DNA from: Streptomyces sp. NP160
GTDB taxonomy: Bacteria; Actinomycetota; Actinomycetes; Actinomycetales; Quadrisphaeraceae
Length of the DNA stretch: 45,788 bases
Assembly (NCBI RefSeq): GCF_006335115.1
Contig: NZ_VDMJ01000011.1
Location: 1-45,788 of the forward strand
Direction of reading: 5' to 3'
In this document: positions 7,110-10,298 of the stretch, one piece after another
How the letters are laid out: each line of letters begins with the position of its first letter
How positions within the stretch are numbered: position 1 is the first letter of the stretch
The notes under the pieces: model-generated
The model's input: only the letters and a program-made list of their open reading frames with translations
What the model was told of the DNA's origin: nothing
Databases searched by the model: none
Translations under genes and position numbers: made by a program

Positions 7110-8036
7110 TCAGCTGGCGTCGAGCGGCAGCAGCACGCCCTTCACGGACGGGTCGTTGGCGAGGAACTCCTGGACCTTCGGGTCCTGGAAGGTCTCGACG
7201 AGGGCCTTGATGTTGTCCGAGTCCTTCCACGTGGAGCCGATGGTCAGCTGCCCGGCGAACTCGTCCGGCGGGGTCGGCGCGAAGATCTGCTGCTCGAGCG
7301 GGATCTTCGCCGCGAGGTAGTACTCGGTGTAGCCGACGGCGGCGTCGAGGTCGGGCAGGGCCCGGCTCTGCGCGCCGAAGTCGAGCAGCGTGAACTCCAG
7401 GTCCTTGGGGTTGGACGCGATGTCGTCGACCGTGGCCGAGCCGACGTCCACGCCGTCCTTGAGGGTGATGAGCCCGGCCTGCTGCAGCACGTACAGGCCC
7501 TGCGCCTCGTTGGCGGGGTCGGAGTACAGCGAGACCGTGCCGCCCTGGGGGATCTCCTGCGGCGTCTTCCACTTGGCCGACCACAGCCCGAAGCCCCAGC
7601 GGAAGACCGGCGTCGCGGCCTCCTCCGTGAAGTCGGGGTTGGCCTCGAGGACCTGCCCCAGCCACAGCTTGTGCTGGTAGATGGTGCCCGCCACCTCGCC
7701 GTCGCTCACGGCGCGGTTGATGGTGTTGGAGTCCGCCAGGGCCTTGAAGGCGACCTTGATGCCGTGGTCGGGTGCGACGTCCTCGGCGATGTACTCGATG
7801 AGCGCCTGCTCGCGGGCGTTGCCCTCGGCCGTGGCCACGTAGAGCGTGGCGCCCGGCGTGGTGTTGGCGGTCTCGGTGCCGCCGAGGCGGGGGACGACGA
7901 CGGCGCTGGCCACCGCGAGCACCGCGACGGTGCCGCCGGCGATCCACGGCCACCGCTTGCGCTTGCGGACCTCGAAGCCGTGGCCGTCGGGGCTGCCGGT
8001 GCCGCCTGTGCTGGGGCGGGTCTCAGTGGTGGACAT
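7110..8036 (-). CDS. metQ: Methionine ABC transporter substrate-binding protein (NlpA/MetQ family)
   Basis: A 308-residue NlpA-family binding protein that captures methionine for import. LYVATAEGNAREQALIEYI opens the mature domain, and GTIYQHKLWLGQ, ARTVSLYSDPAN-like and STWKDSDNIKALVETF blocks are conserved. The N-terminus is unusual. A charged stretch EVRKRKRWPW is followed by a hydrophobic helix (about 31-48) with no lipobox cysteine, so it may stay anchored by that helix rather than by lipidation. The start overlaps the metI 3' end by 14 nt. Last gene of the SAM-IV-controlled operon. Confidence 0.92.
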   Translation of the reverse strand: MSTTETRPSTGGTGSPDGHGFEVRKRKRWPWIAGGTVAVLAVASAVVVPRLGGTETANTTPGATLYVATAEGNAREQALIEYIAEDVAPDHGIKVAFKALADSNTINRAVSDGEVAGTIYQHKLWLGQVLEANPDFTEEAATPVFRWGFGLWSAKWKTPQEIPQGGTVSLYSDPANEAQGLYVLQQAGLITLKDGVDVGSATVDDIASNPKDLEFTLLDFGAQSRALPDLDAAVGYTEYYLAAKIPLEQQIFAPTPPDEFAGQLTIGSTWKDSDNIKALVETFQDPKVQEFLANDPSVKGVLLPLDAS

Positions 8037-8835
8037 CGGAGAGCTCCTTCGAGGACGCGCTGGTGCTGGTCTGGGTGGCGGAGGACGACGACGGCGAGGG
8101 CGCCGCGCCGGTGGAGCTGCTGCGCTGGCGCGGGAGGCGGCGGCGCGAGTGCGGGGTGGTGGCGCGCACGGCGGCGTCGCCGAGGGCCTGGACGGCGGCG
8201 ACCAGGGCGACCAGCACGACGATCGTGGTGATCATCACGTTGTGGTCGAACCGCTGGTAGCCGTAGGTGACGGCCACGTAGCCGATGCCGCCGGCGCCGA
8301 TGGTGCCCGCGATGGCCGAGTACTCGATCATCGCGATGGTGTTGATGGTCAGGCCGCCGAGGATCGAGGGGACGGCCTCGGAGAGCTTCACGCTGGTGAG
8401 CACCTGCAGCGGCGAGGCGCCGGACGCGCGGGCCACCCGGACCAGCGACGGCGGCACCGACCGCAGCGAGTTCTCCACGATGCGGCTGAAGAACGCCGTG
8501 CCGGCCAGAGCCATCGGCACCACCGCGGCGGGGATGCCGATGTTGGTGCCGGTGACGAACCGCGTGAACGGCACGAGCGCGGCCATGAGGATGAGGAACG
8601 GCAGCGACCGGCCCACGCTCACCACGGCCGACAGCACCTTGTGGAGCACCGGGCGCGGGGTGAGGCCGCCGGGTCCGAGCGCGTCGAGCGCGACCCCCAG
8701 GGGCACCCCGAGGACGACGACGATCGCCATCGTCACGCCCACCATGACCAGCGTGTCGCCCAGGGCCGGCAGCACGAGGGCGGGGATCTCCGCCCAGGTC
8801 AGGTCGGTGCTGGTCGCCGTCAAGACCGCGCTCAT
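8023..8835 (-). CDS. metI: Methionine ABC transporter permease MetI
   Basis: A 270-residue permease with five or so membrane helices. ARASGASPLQVLTSVKLSEA is the coupling loop that docks with the ATPase, and GLTINTIAMIEYSAIAGTIG is strongly MetI-like. The ATG start lies in an ATGA overlap with the metN stop. The last 40 residues are a Ser/Thr/Ala-rich tail beyond the normal MetI length, and its coding sequence overlaps the metQ start. The tail may be a by-product of that overlap. Confidence 0.94.
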   Translation of the reverse strand: MSAVLTATSTDLTWAEIPALVLPALGDTLVMVGVTMAIVVVLGVPLGVALDALGPGGLTPRPVLHKVLSAVVSVGRSLPFLILMAALVPFTRFVTGTNIGIPAAVVPMALAGTAFFSRIVENSLRSVPPSLVRVARASGASPLQVLTSVKLSEAVPSILGGLTINTIAMIEYSAIAGTIGAGGIGYVAVTYGYQRFDHNVMITTIVVLVALVAAVQALGDAAVRATTPHSRRRLPRQRSSSTGAAPSPSSSSATQTSTSASSKELSDVHH

Positions 8836-9893
8836 GCGACGACCTCCAGGGTCTGTCCGAGCGTCTGGGCGGCGGCGCGCTGCTCGGCGGCGTCGGAGGC
8901 CTCGCGCTGGGCGTGCAGCCCGAGGCCGATGAGGGCGGCCTCGACGTCGTCGTCGTCCAGGTGCGCCGGGGCGCCGACGACGGCGTGGCCCACGGCCACC
9001 CCGGCCACGGTGCTCAGCGACGCGCCGAGCAGCTCCAGGTCGGTGCCCAGGGCGCGGGAGGCGCGGACCAGCCAGTCCGCCGGGACGCGGTTGCCGGCGT
9101 GGCTGACCACCCACGTCGATCGCAGCGCGCGCGATCCGTCGTCGAGCGAGCCGGCGTGCGCGCGGCGCGGCAGCAGCGCCCGGCCGAGCGGGGACGCCGG
9201 GGTGTGGAGGAGGTCCACCAGGGCGCCGTGCTCGACGATGCGGCCGTGGTCGAGCCGGGCGACCGTGTCGGCCACCGCGACGACGGTGTCCATCTCGTGG
9301 GTGATGAACAGGACGGCCAGCTGCAGGTCGTCGCGCAGCTCCTTGAGCAGCGCGACGATGCTCGCCGTGGCCTGCGGGTCCAGGCCGGAGGTGGCCTCGT
9401 CGGAGAGCAGCACGCTCGGCCGCAGCGCGAGGGCGCGGGCGATGCCCACGCGCTGGCGCTGGCCGCCGGACAGCTCGTGCGGGTAGCGGTGGGCCTTGTC
9501 GGCCAGGCCGACGCGCTCCAGCAGCTCAGCGACGCGCGCCCTGCGCTGCGCAGGCACCACGCCGAGGTGCTTCAGCGGCAGCTCGACGTTCTGCGCGGCG
9601 GTGCGGCGGGTCAGCAGGCCGTCGGCCTGGAACACGGTGCCGATGCCGCGGCGGGCCTCGCGCAGGTCCTTCTCGGACAGGGAGGTGAGGTCGCGGCCGC
9701 CGACGAGCACCGCACCGGACGTGGGGCGCTCGAGGAGCGTGACGCAGGCGGCGAGCGTCGACTTGCCGGCGCCGGACGGGCCGACGACGGCGGTGATCTC
9801 GCCGGGGGCGACCGTCAGGTCGAGGGAGTCCAGCACGGTGGTGGCGTGCTGGCCCTCGCCGTAGGTCTTGGTGAGCGACCTGAGCTCGATCAC
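8832..9893 (-). CDS. metN: Methionine ABC transporter ATP-binding protein MetN
   Basis: A 353-residue ATPase driving methionine uptake. Walker A is GPSGAGKST, the signature is LSGGQRQRVGIARAL, Walker B is VLLSDEATSGLD, and the H-loop is FITHEMD. The C-terminal 100 residues form a NIL domain, which in characterised MetN proteins binds methionine and inhibits transport. The GTG start at 9893 has no strong Shine-Dalgarno. GTGATCGAGC occurs twice in a row at the start. A 230-nt untranslated stretch separates it from the leader ORF. Confidence 0.95.
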   Translation of the reverse strand: MIELRSLTKTYGEGQHATTVLDSLDLTVAPGEITAVVGPSGAGKSTLAACVTLLERPTSGAVLVGGRDLTSLSEKDLREARRGIGTVFQADGLLTRRTAAQNVELPLKHLGVVPAQRRARVAELLERVGLADKAHRYPHELSGGQRQRVGIARALALRPSVLLSDEATSGLDPQATASIVALLKELRDDLQLAVLFITHEMDTVVAVADTVARLDHGRIVEHGALVDLLHTPASPLGRALLPRRAHAGSLDDGSRALRSTWVVSHAGNRVPADWLVRASRALGTDLELLGASLSTVAGVAVGHAVVGAPAHLDDDDVEAALIGLGLHAQREASDAAEQRAAAQTLGQTLEVVA

Positions 9894-10123: not shown

Positions 10124-10174
10124 TCAGGCGCGTCGCCAGCGACAGTCGTCGCTGGTCATGGCGTGCGTGTGCAC
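10124..10174 (-). CDS. 16-residue leader peptide behind the SAM-IV riboswitch
   Basis: A 17-codon ORF starting GTG, preceded by AGAGGAG with 5 nt spacing, the best ribosome binding site in this part of the window. The predicted product is MHTHAMTSDDCRWRRA. It starts 18 nt after the riboswitch's last hairpin and 230 nt before metN. It is histidine- and arginine-rich with one Cys and two Met. The strong Shine-Dalgarno makes translation plausible. A role as a translated leader regulating metNIQ is inference. It is not a known peptide to me. Confidence 0.6.
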   Translation of the reverse strand: MHTHAMTSDDCRWRRA

Positions 10175-10191
10175 GTCGGCTCCTCTGAGTC

Positions 10192-10298
10192 GTCCTTGCC
10201 CGTGCCGGTGGGAACGGACCTGGTCTTCACCCGGAGCACCCCATGACGAGCAGGGTTGCCGGCCAGCGAGCCGGGGCTTGGCGCTGGCGCTCATGACC
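10192..10298 (-). promoter_or_regulatory. SAM-IV riboswitch upstream of metNIQ
   Basis: Read on the minus strand, the segment has the SAM-IV consensus: GGTCATGAGCGCCAGCGCC, then CAAGCCCCGGCTCGCTGG, then CCGGCAACCCTGCTCGTC, and GGGTGCTCCGGGTGAAGACC closing the first helix (GGTC/GACC). A further stem (GTCC...GGAC with CCC/GGG inside) follows at 10192-10219, as expected for the 3' part of this class. SAM-IV riboswitches bind S-adenosylmethionine and lower expression of methionine genes in actinobacteria. Here it should repress metNIQ when SAM is plentiful. Boundaries are approximate. Confidence 0.92.

Follow-up and report, generated by a model that had tools for sequence, protein, structure and literature searches.

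The SAM-IV riboswitch was reportedly first described by Weinberg in 2008, and the cysteine leader peptides of actinobacteria are said to have been treated by Canestrari in 2020, among others. The SAM-IV structure contains two pseudoknots, PK-1 and PK-2 (PMC6890682). Actinobacterial cysteine leader peptides have been known since 2005 and, in the passages cited, are encoded by short ORFs that carry one or more Cys codons near the stop and precede sulfur genes, with no obvious terminator (PMC1262725). In Streptomyces lividans, metL is a leaderless Cys/Met leader peptide (MSTTSDRTPATEATTTPGARCMCRRMCAF) located before metNIQ; the same account places a SAM-IV riboswitch before a cysteine desulfurase gene, tabulates no leader peptide for it in the passages cited, and treats SAM-IV and leader peptides apart (PMC8079986). 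Control of a uORF by a riboswitch has been described in Mycobacterium tuberculosis for B12 (metE and ppe2; PMC11260477) and for the magnesium-sensing Mbox (pe20; PMC12810186). According to the passages cited, these uORFs act by NUGA re-initiation or through Rho, as tested with reporters (PMC11260477, PMC12810186), and uORF1 of the Mbox also contains rare TGC/TGT codons (PMC12810186). Finally, the SAM-I riboswitch of Xanthomonas is described as also sensing uncharged initiator tRNA (PMC7270179). An initial annotation of the locus studied here had called coupled riboswitch and uORF control rarely described for SAM-IV, which fits the open-licence literature: judged mostly by titles and abstract starts, no report of SAM-IV combined with a uORF or a leader peptide was found in it. 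This suggests that the pairing of SAM-IV with a Cys/Met leader peptide is new, riboswitch-controlled uORFs and Cys leader peptides each being already known.

The window analysed here is the whole stretch of 45,788 nucleotides of contig NZ_VDMJ01000011.1 from Streptomyces sp. NP160, which the GTDB places in the Quadrisphaeraceae. We propose that the metNIQ leader on its minus strand is a two-input control RNA, in which SAM gates the translation of a Cys-sensing leader peptide that in turn sets metNIQ expression; on the sequence evidence, we give this reading a probability of roughly 0.55. The SAM-IV riboswitch named in the initial annotation is the only Rfam match of the window above its gathering score: the aptamer (RF00634, 10298-10187, minus strand) scores 92.4 bits against a cut-off of 38, with an E-value of 1.5e-15 over the full model (1-116). 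Both pseudoknots can be drawn by eye, PK-1 between CCCGG in the P2b loop and CCGGG, and PK-2 between TCGTC in the P3 loop and GACGA after CAAG. Upstream lies a promoter-like pair of hexamers, TTGACT (10336-10331) and TACGGT (10312-10307), 18 nt apart, which resemble the sigma-70 consensus by eye. The Shine-Dalgarno (SD) sequence AGAGGAG (10186-10180) adjoins the 3′ edge of the aptamer and is separated by five nucleotides (CCGAC) from the GTG (10174) of a candidate leader peptide, VHTHAMTSDDCRWRRA, whose 16 codons end at a TGA (10126-10124). The whole arrangement, AGAGGAG-N5-GTG followed by a short frame (10186-10124, minus strand), is as first annotated, and so is the distance of 230 nt between the uORF stop and the metN GTG at 9893. 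The reading of the operon as metNIQ is sound: metN (8832-9893) has an ABC_tran match, with MetN as its best NCBIfam match (264.7 bits, below the cut-off of 499.7), the permease gene that follows is metI-like (ORF 8023-9114, BPD_transp_1 match), and metQ (7110-8036) has an NlpA lipoprotein match. The genome belongs to Quadrisphaera, the nearest named metN loci being those of Quadrisphaera granulorum DSM 44889 (93% identity) and Quadrisphaera sp. INWT6 (90%).

Conservation was assessed over five congeners, namely the window and the four other complete metN leaders (G008, G009, G010 and G011); the leader of G012 was excluded from this set because its contig ends inside the uORF. Both promoter-like hexamers are identical in the alignment of the five. 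The SD (as GAGGAG), the GTG, the frame, the TGT-CGC-TGG codons and the stop are kept in all five, although the length of the uORF varies by 12 nt in frame, two congeners having four extra codons. Invariant columns amount to 101/112 in the aptamer, 10/12 from SD to start and 43/51 (ungapped) in the uORF, compared with 41/84 and 10/31 in two parts of the spacer and 51/59 around the metN start. Retention of the uORF in 5/5 leaders, from its SD and start through the frame with the Cys codon to the stop, exceeds what chance would be expected to leave. The initial annotation named a lack of conservation of the uORF or its SD in relatives as refuting; its idea withstands this within the genus but not across the whole family. 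Beyond the five congeners, a second genus of the same family (G003) carries a 33-codon uORF, led by an SD and containing TGT-CGC, that starts at +11, the same distance. In a third genus (G004 and G006) the metN-like genes themselves begin at +68 and +70, and a uORF between SAM-IV and gene is absent. Most codon differences within the uORF change the amino acid (by eye), so that selection on the RNA and selection on the peptide look indistinguishable from the five leaders, and selection at the peptide level is thus without support. The uORF, in its G008 form, has no match to NF042934 or elsewhere in NCBIfam up to an E-value of 5; it is an SD-led short ORF with a Cys codon near the stop (codon 11 of 16) before a sulfur operon, as in the general description of Cys leaders.

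The start of metN itself was said to have no clear SD. This stands only in part: a GGAGG does precede the gene (9914-9910), at 16 nt from the metN GTG, and the start to which it is well spaced is GTG 9904, 5 nt downstream. This GTG opens a mini-ORF of four codons, VIEP* (9904-9890), whose TGA overlaps the metN GTG (GTGA), an overlap of stop and gene start of the kind associated with termination-reinitiation at ppe2. VIEP* is also found in G008, G009 and G010. The mini-ORF arose where 11 nt of the metN start were duplicated in tandem (9914-9890, minus strand; GTGATCGAGCC GTGATCGAGCT), and G011 apparently has two such mini-ORFs in tandem before metN (by eye).

Observed in this leader are an aptamer, a uORF conserved together with its SD and Cys codon, conserved paired RNA segments and a mini-ORF that overlaps metN; pairs of SAM-IV with Cys/Met uORFs also recur at other sulfur genes. 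From these parts and their conservation we infer each regulatory step, including translation, the amino acid sensed and termination, and each effect may run in either direction. In the proposed model, the SAM-IV aptamer would fold at the transcript's 5′ end, with its 3′ edge touching the uORF SD, and SAM would set whether ribosomes start on the uORF. A ribosome short of charged Cys-tRNA would halt at the rare TGT codon; otherwise it would reach the stop. Its position would free either the hairpin around the Cys codon or a long-range helix in which the last uORF codons pair with a segment about 92 nt further on, and the RNA parts so freed may alter the passage of transcription through the C-rich spacer, most likely by way of Rho. 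The position of the ribosome would also decide whether metN is translated, by re-initiation from the overlapping mini-ORF. At other loci, the ribosome on the uORF may report the supply of methionine instead of cysteine.

The recurrence was measured over 153 SAM-IV leaders. Thirteen family genomes supplied 70 of them; the other 83 come from a class sample in which 60/118 genomes have a SAM-IV match and which gave 84 places outside the genome of the window, the one left out (G247:C36) lying near a contig end. Where the gene starts within 100 nt, a uORF is present in 2/104 leaders, none with a late Cys or Met, while 38 of the 49 leaders whose gene is farther away or undetected have one, 32 of them with Cys or Met in the last eight residues; these counts include many orthologs, near-gene leaders had less room for a uORF since it was required to end before the gene, and the far group without a uORF includes a leader (L152, in G009) that has an HVDL leader peptide without a recognised SD. 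The uORF starts sit where gene starts otherwise sit, at a median of 29.5 against 34 nt past the aptamer. After dereplication by hand, which favours the reading by one because L044 (Cys-Arg) was kept and its ortholog L046, which lacks the motif, was dropped, 13 of 25 uORFs have [C/M]-Arg in the last eight residues, against 35 of 613 short SD-led ORFs taken as background from the same loci (p 1.3e-9). The observed count was reached in 0/2000 length-matched draws; a 'first start' rule that kept a frame without Cys for one leader (L002) counts against the reading. Because the motif was first noticed in the genome of the window, a fairer test uses only the class set; there, [C/M]-Arg occurs in 6/14 uORFs (p 1.1e-4) and a late Cys or Met in 10/14, against 196/613 in the background (p 0.003). 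A late Cys or Met is absent from some SAM-IV uORFs (L049, L254, L277, L292, L294 and L046). Two of these, L292 and L294, encode HIDL leader peptides that follow SAM-IV and end in SSAY, with no cysteine.

The genome of the window has nine SAM-IV aptamers (L001-L009); in the class sample outside the genus, genomes with a match have one to four. Four of the nine leaders have an SD-led uORF, and all four uORFs contain TGT-CGC (Cys-Arg) in their last six codons. One of them (L002) passes the NCBIfam model NF042934, 'putative leader peptide', with 32.8 bits against a cut-off of 27, and precedes a gene for an SBP_bac_5 protein. Across the 13 family genomes this model has two matches over its cut-off, both directly 3′ of SAM-IV, and weaker leader matches with no SAM-IV upstream lie before a MetY-like gene, two genes with a rhodanese domain and one for a transporter of the SDF family. 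Further genes that follow SAM-IV and a Cys uORF match an acyl-CoA-dehydrogenase-like protein (L005; best NCBIfam matches DszC and SfnB, both below cut-off), TauE (L062) and, at L201, a permease of an amino-acid ABC transporter. At L008 (1290-1102, minus strand), the first SD-led frame after SAM-IV and a Cys uORF has 63 aa and no Pfam match; it is possibly a broken or mis-assembled gene, and its assignment as a carbonic anhydrase was rejected on the same grounds. G009 and G008 each have a back-to-back pair of SAM-IV aptamers, one per strand and separated by about 100 nt (L175/L176). The leader peptide of L213 has no SAM-IV, and its Cys codon and stop lie inside a 14-bp hairpin of terminator-like shape.

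A six-codon uORF, VS(K/Q)RMR, separates SAM-IV from a cysteine-desulfurase-like gene in seven leaders (L227, L229, L230, L238, L241, L251 and L255); the gene at L227 has an Aminotran_5 match, with SufS as its best match, below cut-off. The pattern of the SAM-IV 3′ half followed by this uORF occurs in 100/150 genomes of one genus, and the reversed pattern in none; the genus is probably Streptomyces, an assignment that rests partly on the SAM-IV before a cysteine desulfurase gene in S. lividans. Before MetY-like genes, uORFs such as MCIRRMCCR, VSCQRMPRR, VNHHRMRR and MCCCRMQQVTGA have CGA-ATG in common. The same CGA-ATG (Arg-Met) is common to the SAM-IV uORFs L223, L225, L242, L245 and L278, from five genomes, and to the VS(K/Q)RMR leaders. 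A phylum-wide DNA pattern for SAM-IV with HVDL gave 31 places in 27/396 genomes, and among the 20 of 31 that were checked the SAM-IV core was present only in the genome of the window; this pattern was too narrow and is no measure of rarity, because the class survey found HVDL- or HIDL-type uORFs after SAM-IV in G446, G194 and G173. At metN, a regular expression for the SAM-IV core matched 2/80 loci, both from Quadrisphaera, 7 of the 78 others having less than 1200 nt of upstream sequence.

Altogether, the recurrence of SAM-IV with Cys/Met uORFs at other sulfur genes favours a riboswitch that acts on the uORF first. We tentatively extend this to actinobacteria at large, where SAM-IV may widely act on a leader peptide with Cys or Met codons and not on the gene, forming a recurrent leader with two sensors, one for SAM and one for aminoacyl-tRNA. 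With the same reserve, this leader could include at least three uORF types. Two would end in Cys-Arg, namely HVDL..Cys-Arg and the metN type; the third would have Arg-Met (CGA-ATG) and precede genes that are metY-like or cysteine-desulfurase-like. The Cys codon, the kinship with actinobacterial Cys leader peptides, the metN mini-ORF and the recurrence all go beyond the initial annotation, and the phenomenon is wider than the single locus that it described.

The Cys codon also bears on the best surviving alternative, in which SAM would be the only signal: the aptamer would control the uORF, the uORF would act through Rho or coupling, and the Cys codon would be a slow and rare one, or part of the RNA hairpin. 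The mycobacterial riboswitch uORFs, in the passages cited, provide precedents of this type, with Rho or re-initiation as the outlet and rare TGC/TGT codons in Mbox uORF1 (PMC11260477, PMC12810186). Moreover, the TGT of the metN leaders (10144-10142, codon 11, followed by the Arg codon CGC) lies within a conserved hairpin, CCAGCGAC-GACT-GTCGCTGG (10155-10136), that has 8 bp in 5/5 congeners. TGT is rare, accounting for 3/70 cysteine codons in nearby genes (window and L010), and is kept in the five congeners and in G003. It is the last Cys codon in 23/23 leaders compared, of metN or HVDL type, with or without SAM-IV; at L260 an earlier Cys codon is TGC and the last is TGT, and other SAM-IV uORFs (L044, L052, L059 and L240) use TGC instead. 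A shared RNA hairpin as the cause of TGT was rejected, since the codon recurs where local hairpins differ; by the same measure, a hairpin of at least 6 bp is present at 35% of positions taken at random. This recurrence, together with the enrichment of late [C/M]-Arg in SAM-IV uORFs over background short ORFs, argues against a purely SAM-dependent leader, which we regard as somewhat unlikely.

A second alternative dispenses with a working uORF: the hairpins and the long-range helix would be the expression platform, and the SD and frame incidental or a decoy for ribosomes. It draws on the second half of the uORF, which is near-invariant as nucleotides (31/36 columns) and lies wholly within hairpins, and on the start codon, which is computed as paired. 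A hairpin, CGTGC-ACAC-GCACG (10175-10162), encloses the start with 5 bp and a variable loop in 5/5 congeners, and the computed unpaired probability of the start codon is 0.00-0.02 in all five, which speaks against the initial description of the uORF as strongly initiated. Segment 1, GCGACGCGC (10136-10128), spans the final uORF codons and forms 9 bp in 5/5 leaders with the complementary segment 2, GCGCGTCGC (10031-10023), about 92-96 nt away, which is invariant in the five within a variable spacer; the helix appears in minimum-free-energy and centroid folds. Further on, a spacer hairpin with an inner GTCAC...GTGAC (9985-9952) is present in the folds of 5/5 congeners, with 22/35 columns invariant and its outer pairs broken in some consensus rows, and an entirely invariant block, GGCGATGCCCCCTGCCC (9953-9937, 17/17 columns), contains a segment 3 (GCGATGC). 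Segments 2 and 3 can pair alternatively (7/7 pairs including a G-U, in 5/5 congeners), and mutually exclusive pairings 1:2 and 2:3 can be drawn in all five. Between the SD and the mini-ORF, the RNA has a folding z-score of -2.14, 3/200 shuffles being equally stable. When the spacer is shuffled 1000 times, however, segment 1 still finds a 9-bp partner in 16 to 203 cases, according to the species. There are also no compensatory (two-sided) changes in the long-range helix among the five congeners, and covariation contributes an unfavourable term (+1.24) to their consensus fold. Against a leader of RNA structure only, the SD, start, frame and stop survive the 12-nt in-frame length difference and a change of genus with a different sequence, and uORFs recur precisely where the gene is far from the aptamer; we consider it improbable.

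Two switching mechanisms were examined against these folds and set aside. Classical attenuation with a terminator was rejected because no T-run follows the conserved spacer hairpin (9985-9952) by eye, the next sequence being GATGCCCCC. SAM-dependent hiding of the metN uORF SD likewise receives no support from constrained folding: with the aptamer held folded, the openness of the SD goes up in 4/5 congeners and down in one, a trend opposite to that of a simple OFF switch, and the start codon stays closed with and without the constraint. The proposal of the initial annotation, that the riboswitch first controls translation or termination at the leader ORF, which would then set metNIQ expression, is partly supported: the conservation of the uORF within the genus and its recurrence favour action at the uORF first, whereas the folding model lends it no SAM-dependent closure of the SD. 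In the VS(K/Q)RMR leaders, the same model gives a lower or unchanged openness of the SD with the aptamer held in 7/7 cases, which suggests that SAM hides the SD there, unlike in metN leaders.

The two remaining alternatives are weaker. The frame could be a chance occurrence without a role, SAM acting on metN by an unseen route; short SD-led ORFs are indeed common in such DNA, as the 613 background cases from the same loci illustrate, and the conservation in 5/5 congeners and the contrast between far-gene and near-gene leaders make this explanation very unlikely. Least probable of all is that the uORF encodes a small functional protein, regulated along with methionine import. All five congeners do share the C-terminal CRWRRA, but the product has only 16-20 residues with a variable N-terminal half, and the leader-like relatives before other sulfur genes share only its Cys-Arg end.

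If the two-input reading is correct, actinobacterial sulfur genes would integrate the supply of SAM and of aminoacyl-tRNA in one RNA. Gene-finding that, after a riboswitch, considers only the main gene's SD would misread such leaders, and the NF042934 'putative leader peptide' proteins would gain a place in a circuit.

Compared with described systems, the metN leader combines features that are found separately elsewhere. Like the mycobacterial B12 and Mbox leaders, it places a riboswitch before a uORF that would govern the downstream gene, and metN overlaps its mini-ORF just as ppe2, which has no SD, overlaps its uORF at an NUGA (PMC11260477). The mycobacterial systems differ in their ligands and aptamers, the passages cited draw no link to Cys/Met leader peptides, and their uORFs are backed by reporters, that of metN being a candidate read from sequence (PMC11260477, PMC12810186). 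The late Cys codon and the position before a sulfur operon relate the metN uORF to the actinobacterial Cys leaders (PMC1262725; NF042934, cis_reg_atten); relative to the NF042934 type, it has a single Cys-Arg, lacks the HVDL motif and sits behind a riboswitch. The metL of S. lividans is likewise a Cys/Met leader peptide ahead of the same operon, but it is leaderless, and no SAM-IV is named there in the passages cited (PMC8079986). In Xanthomonas, as proposed here, a single methionine leader responds to two inputs, tRNA charging among them. The Xanthomonas RNA is said to do the sensing of the tRNA by itself (PMC7270179), whereas this would be the task of a translating ribosome in the metN leader. 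Within the SAM-IV family as described (RF00634; PMC6890682), the leaders surveyed here stand out in that a uORF, instead of the gene, provides the next ribosome start after the aptamer in 38/153 cases, all with the gene far away or undetected.
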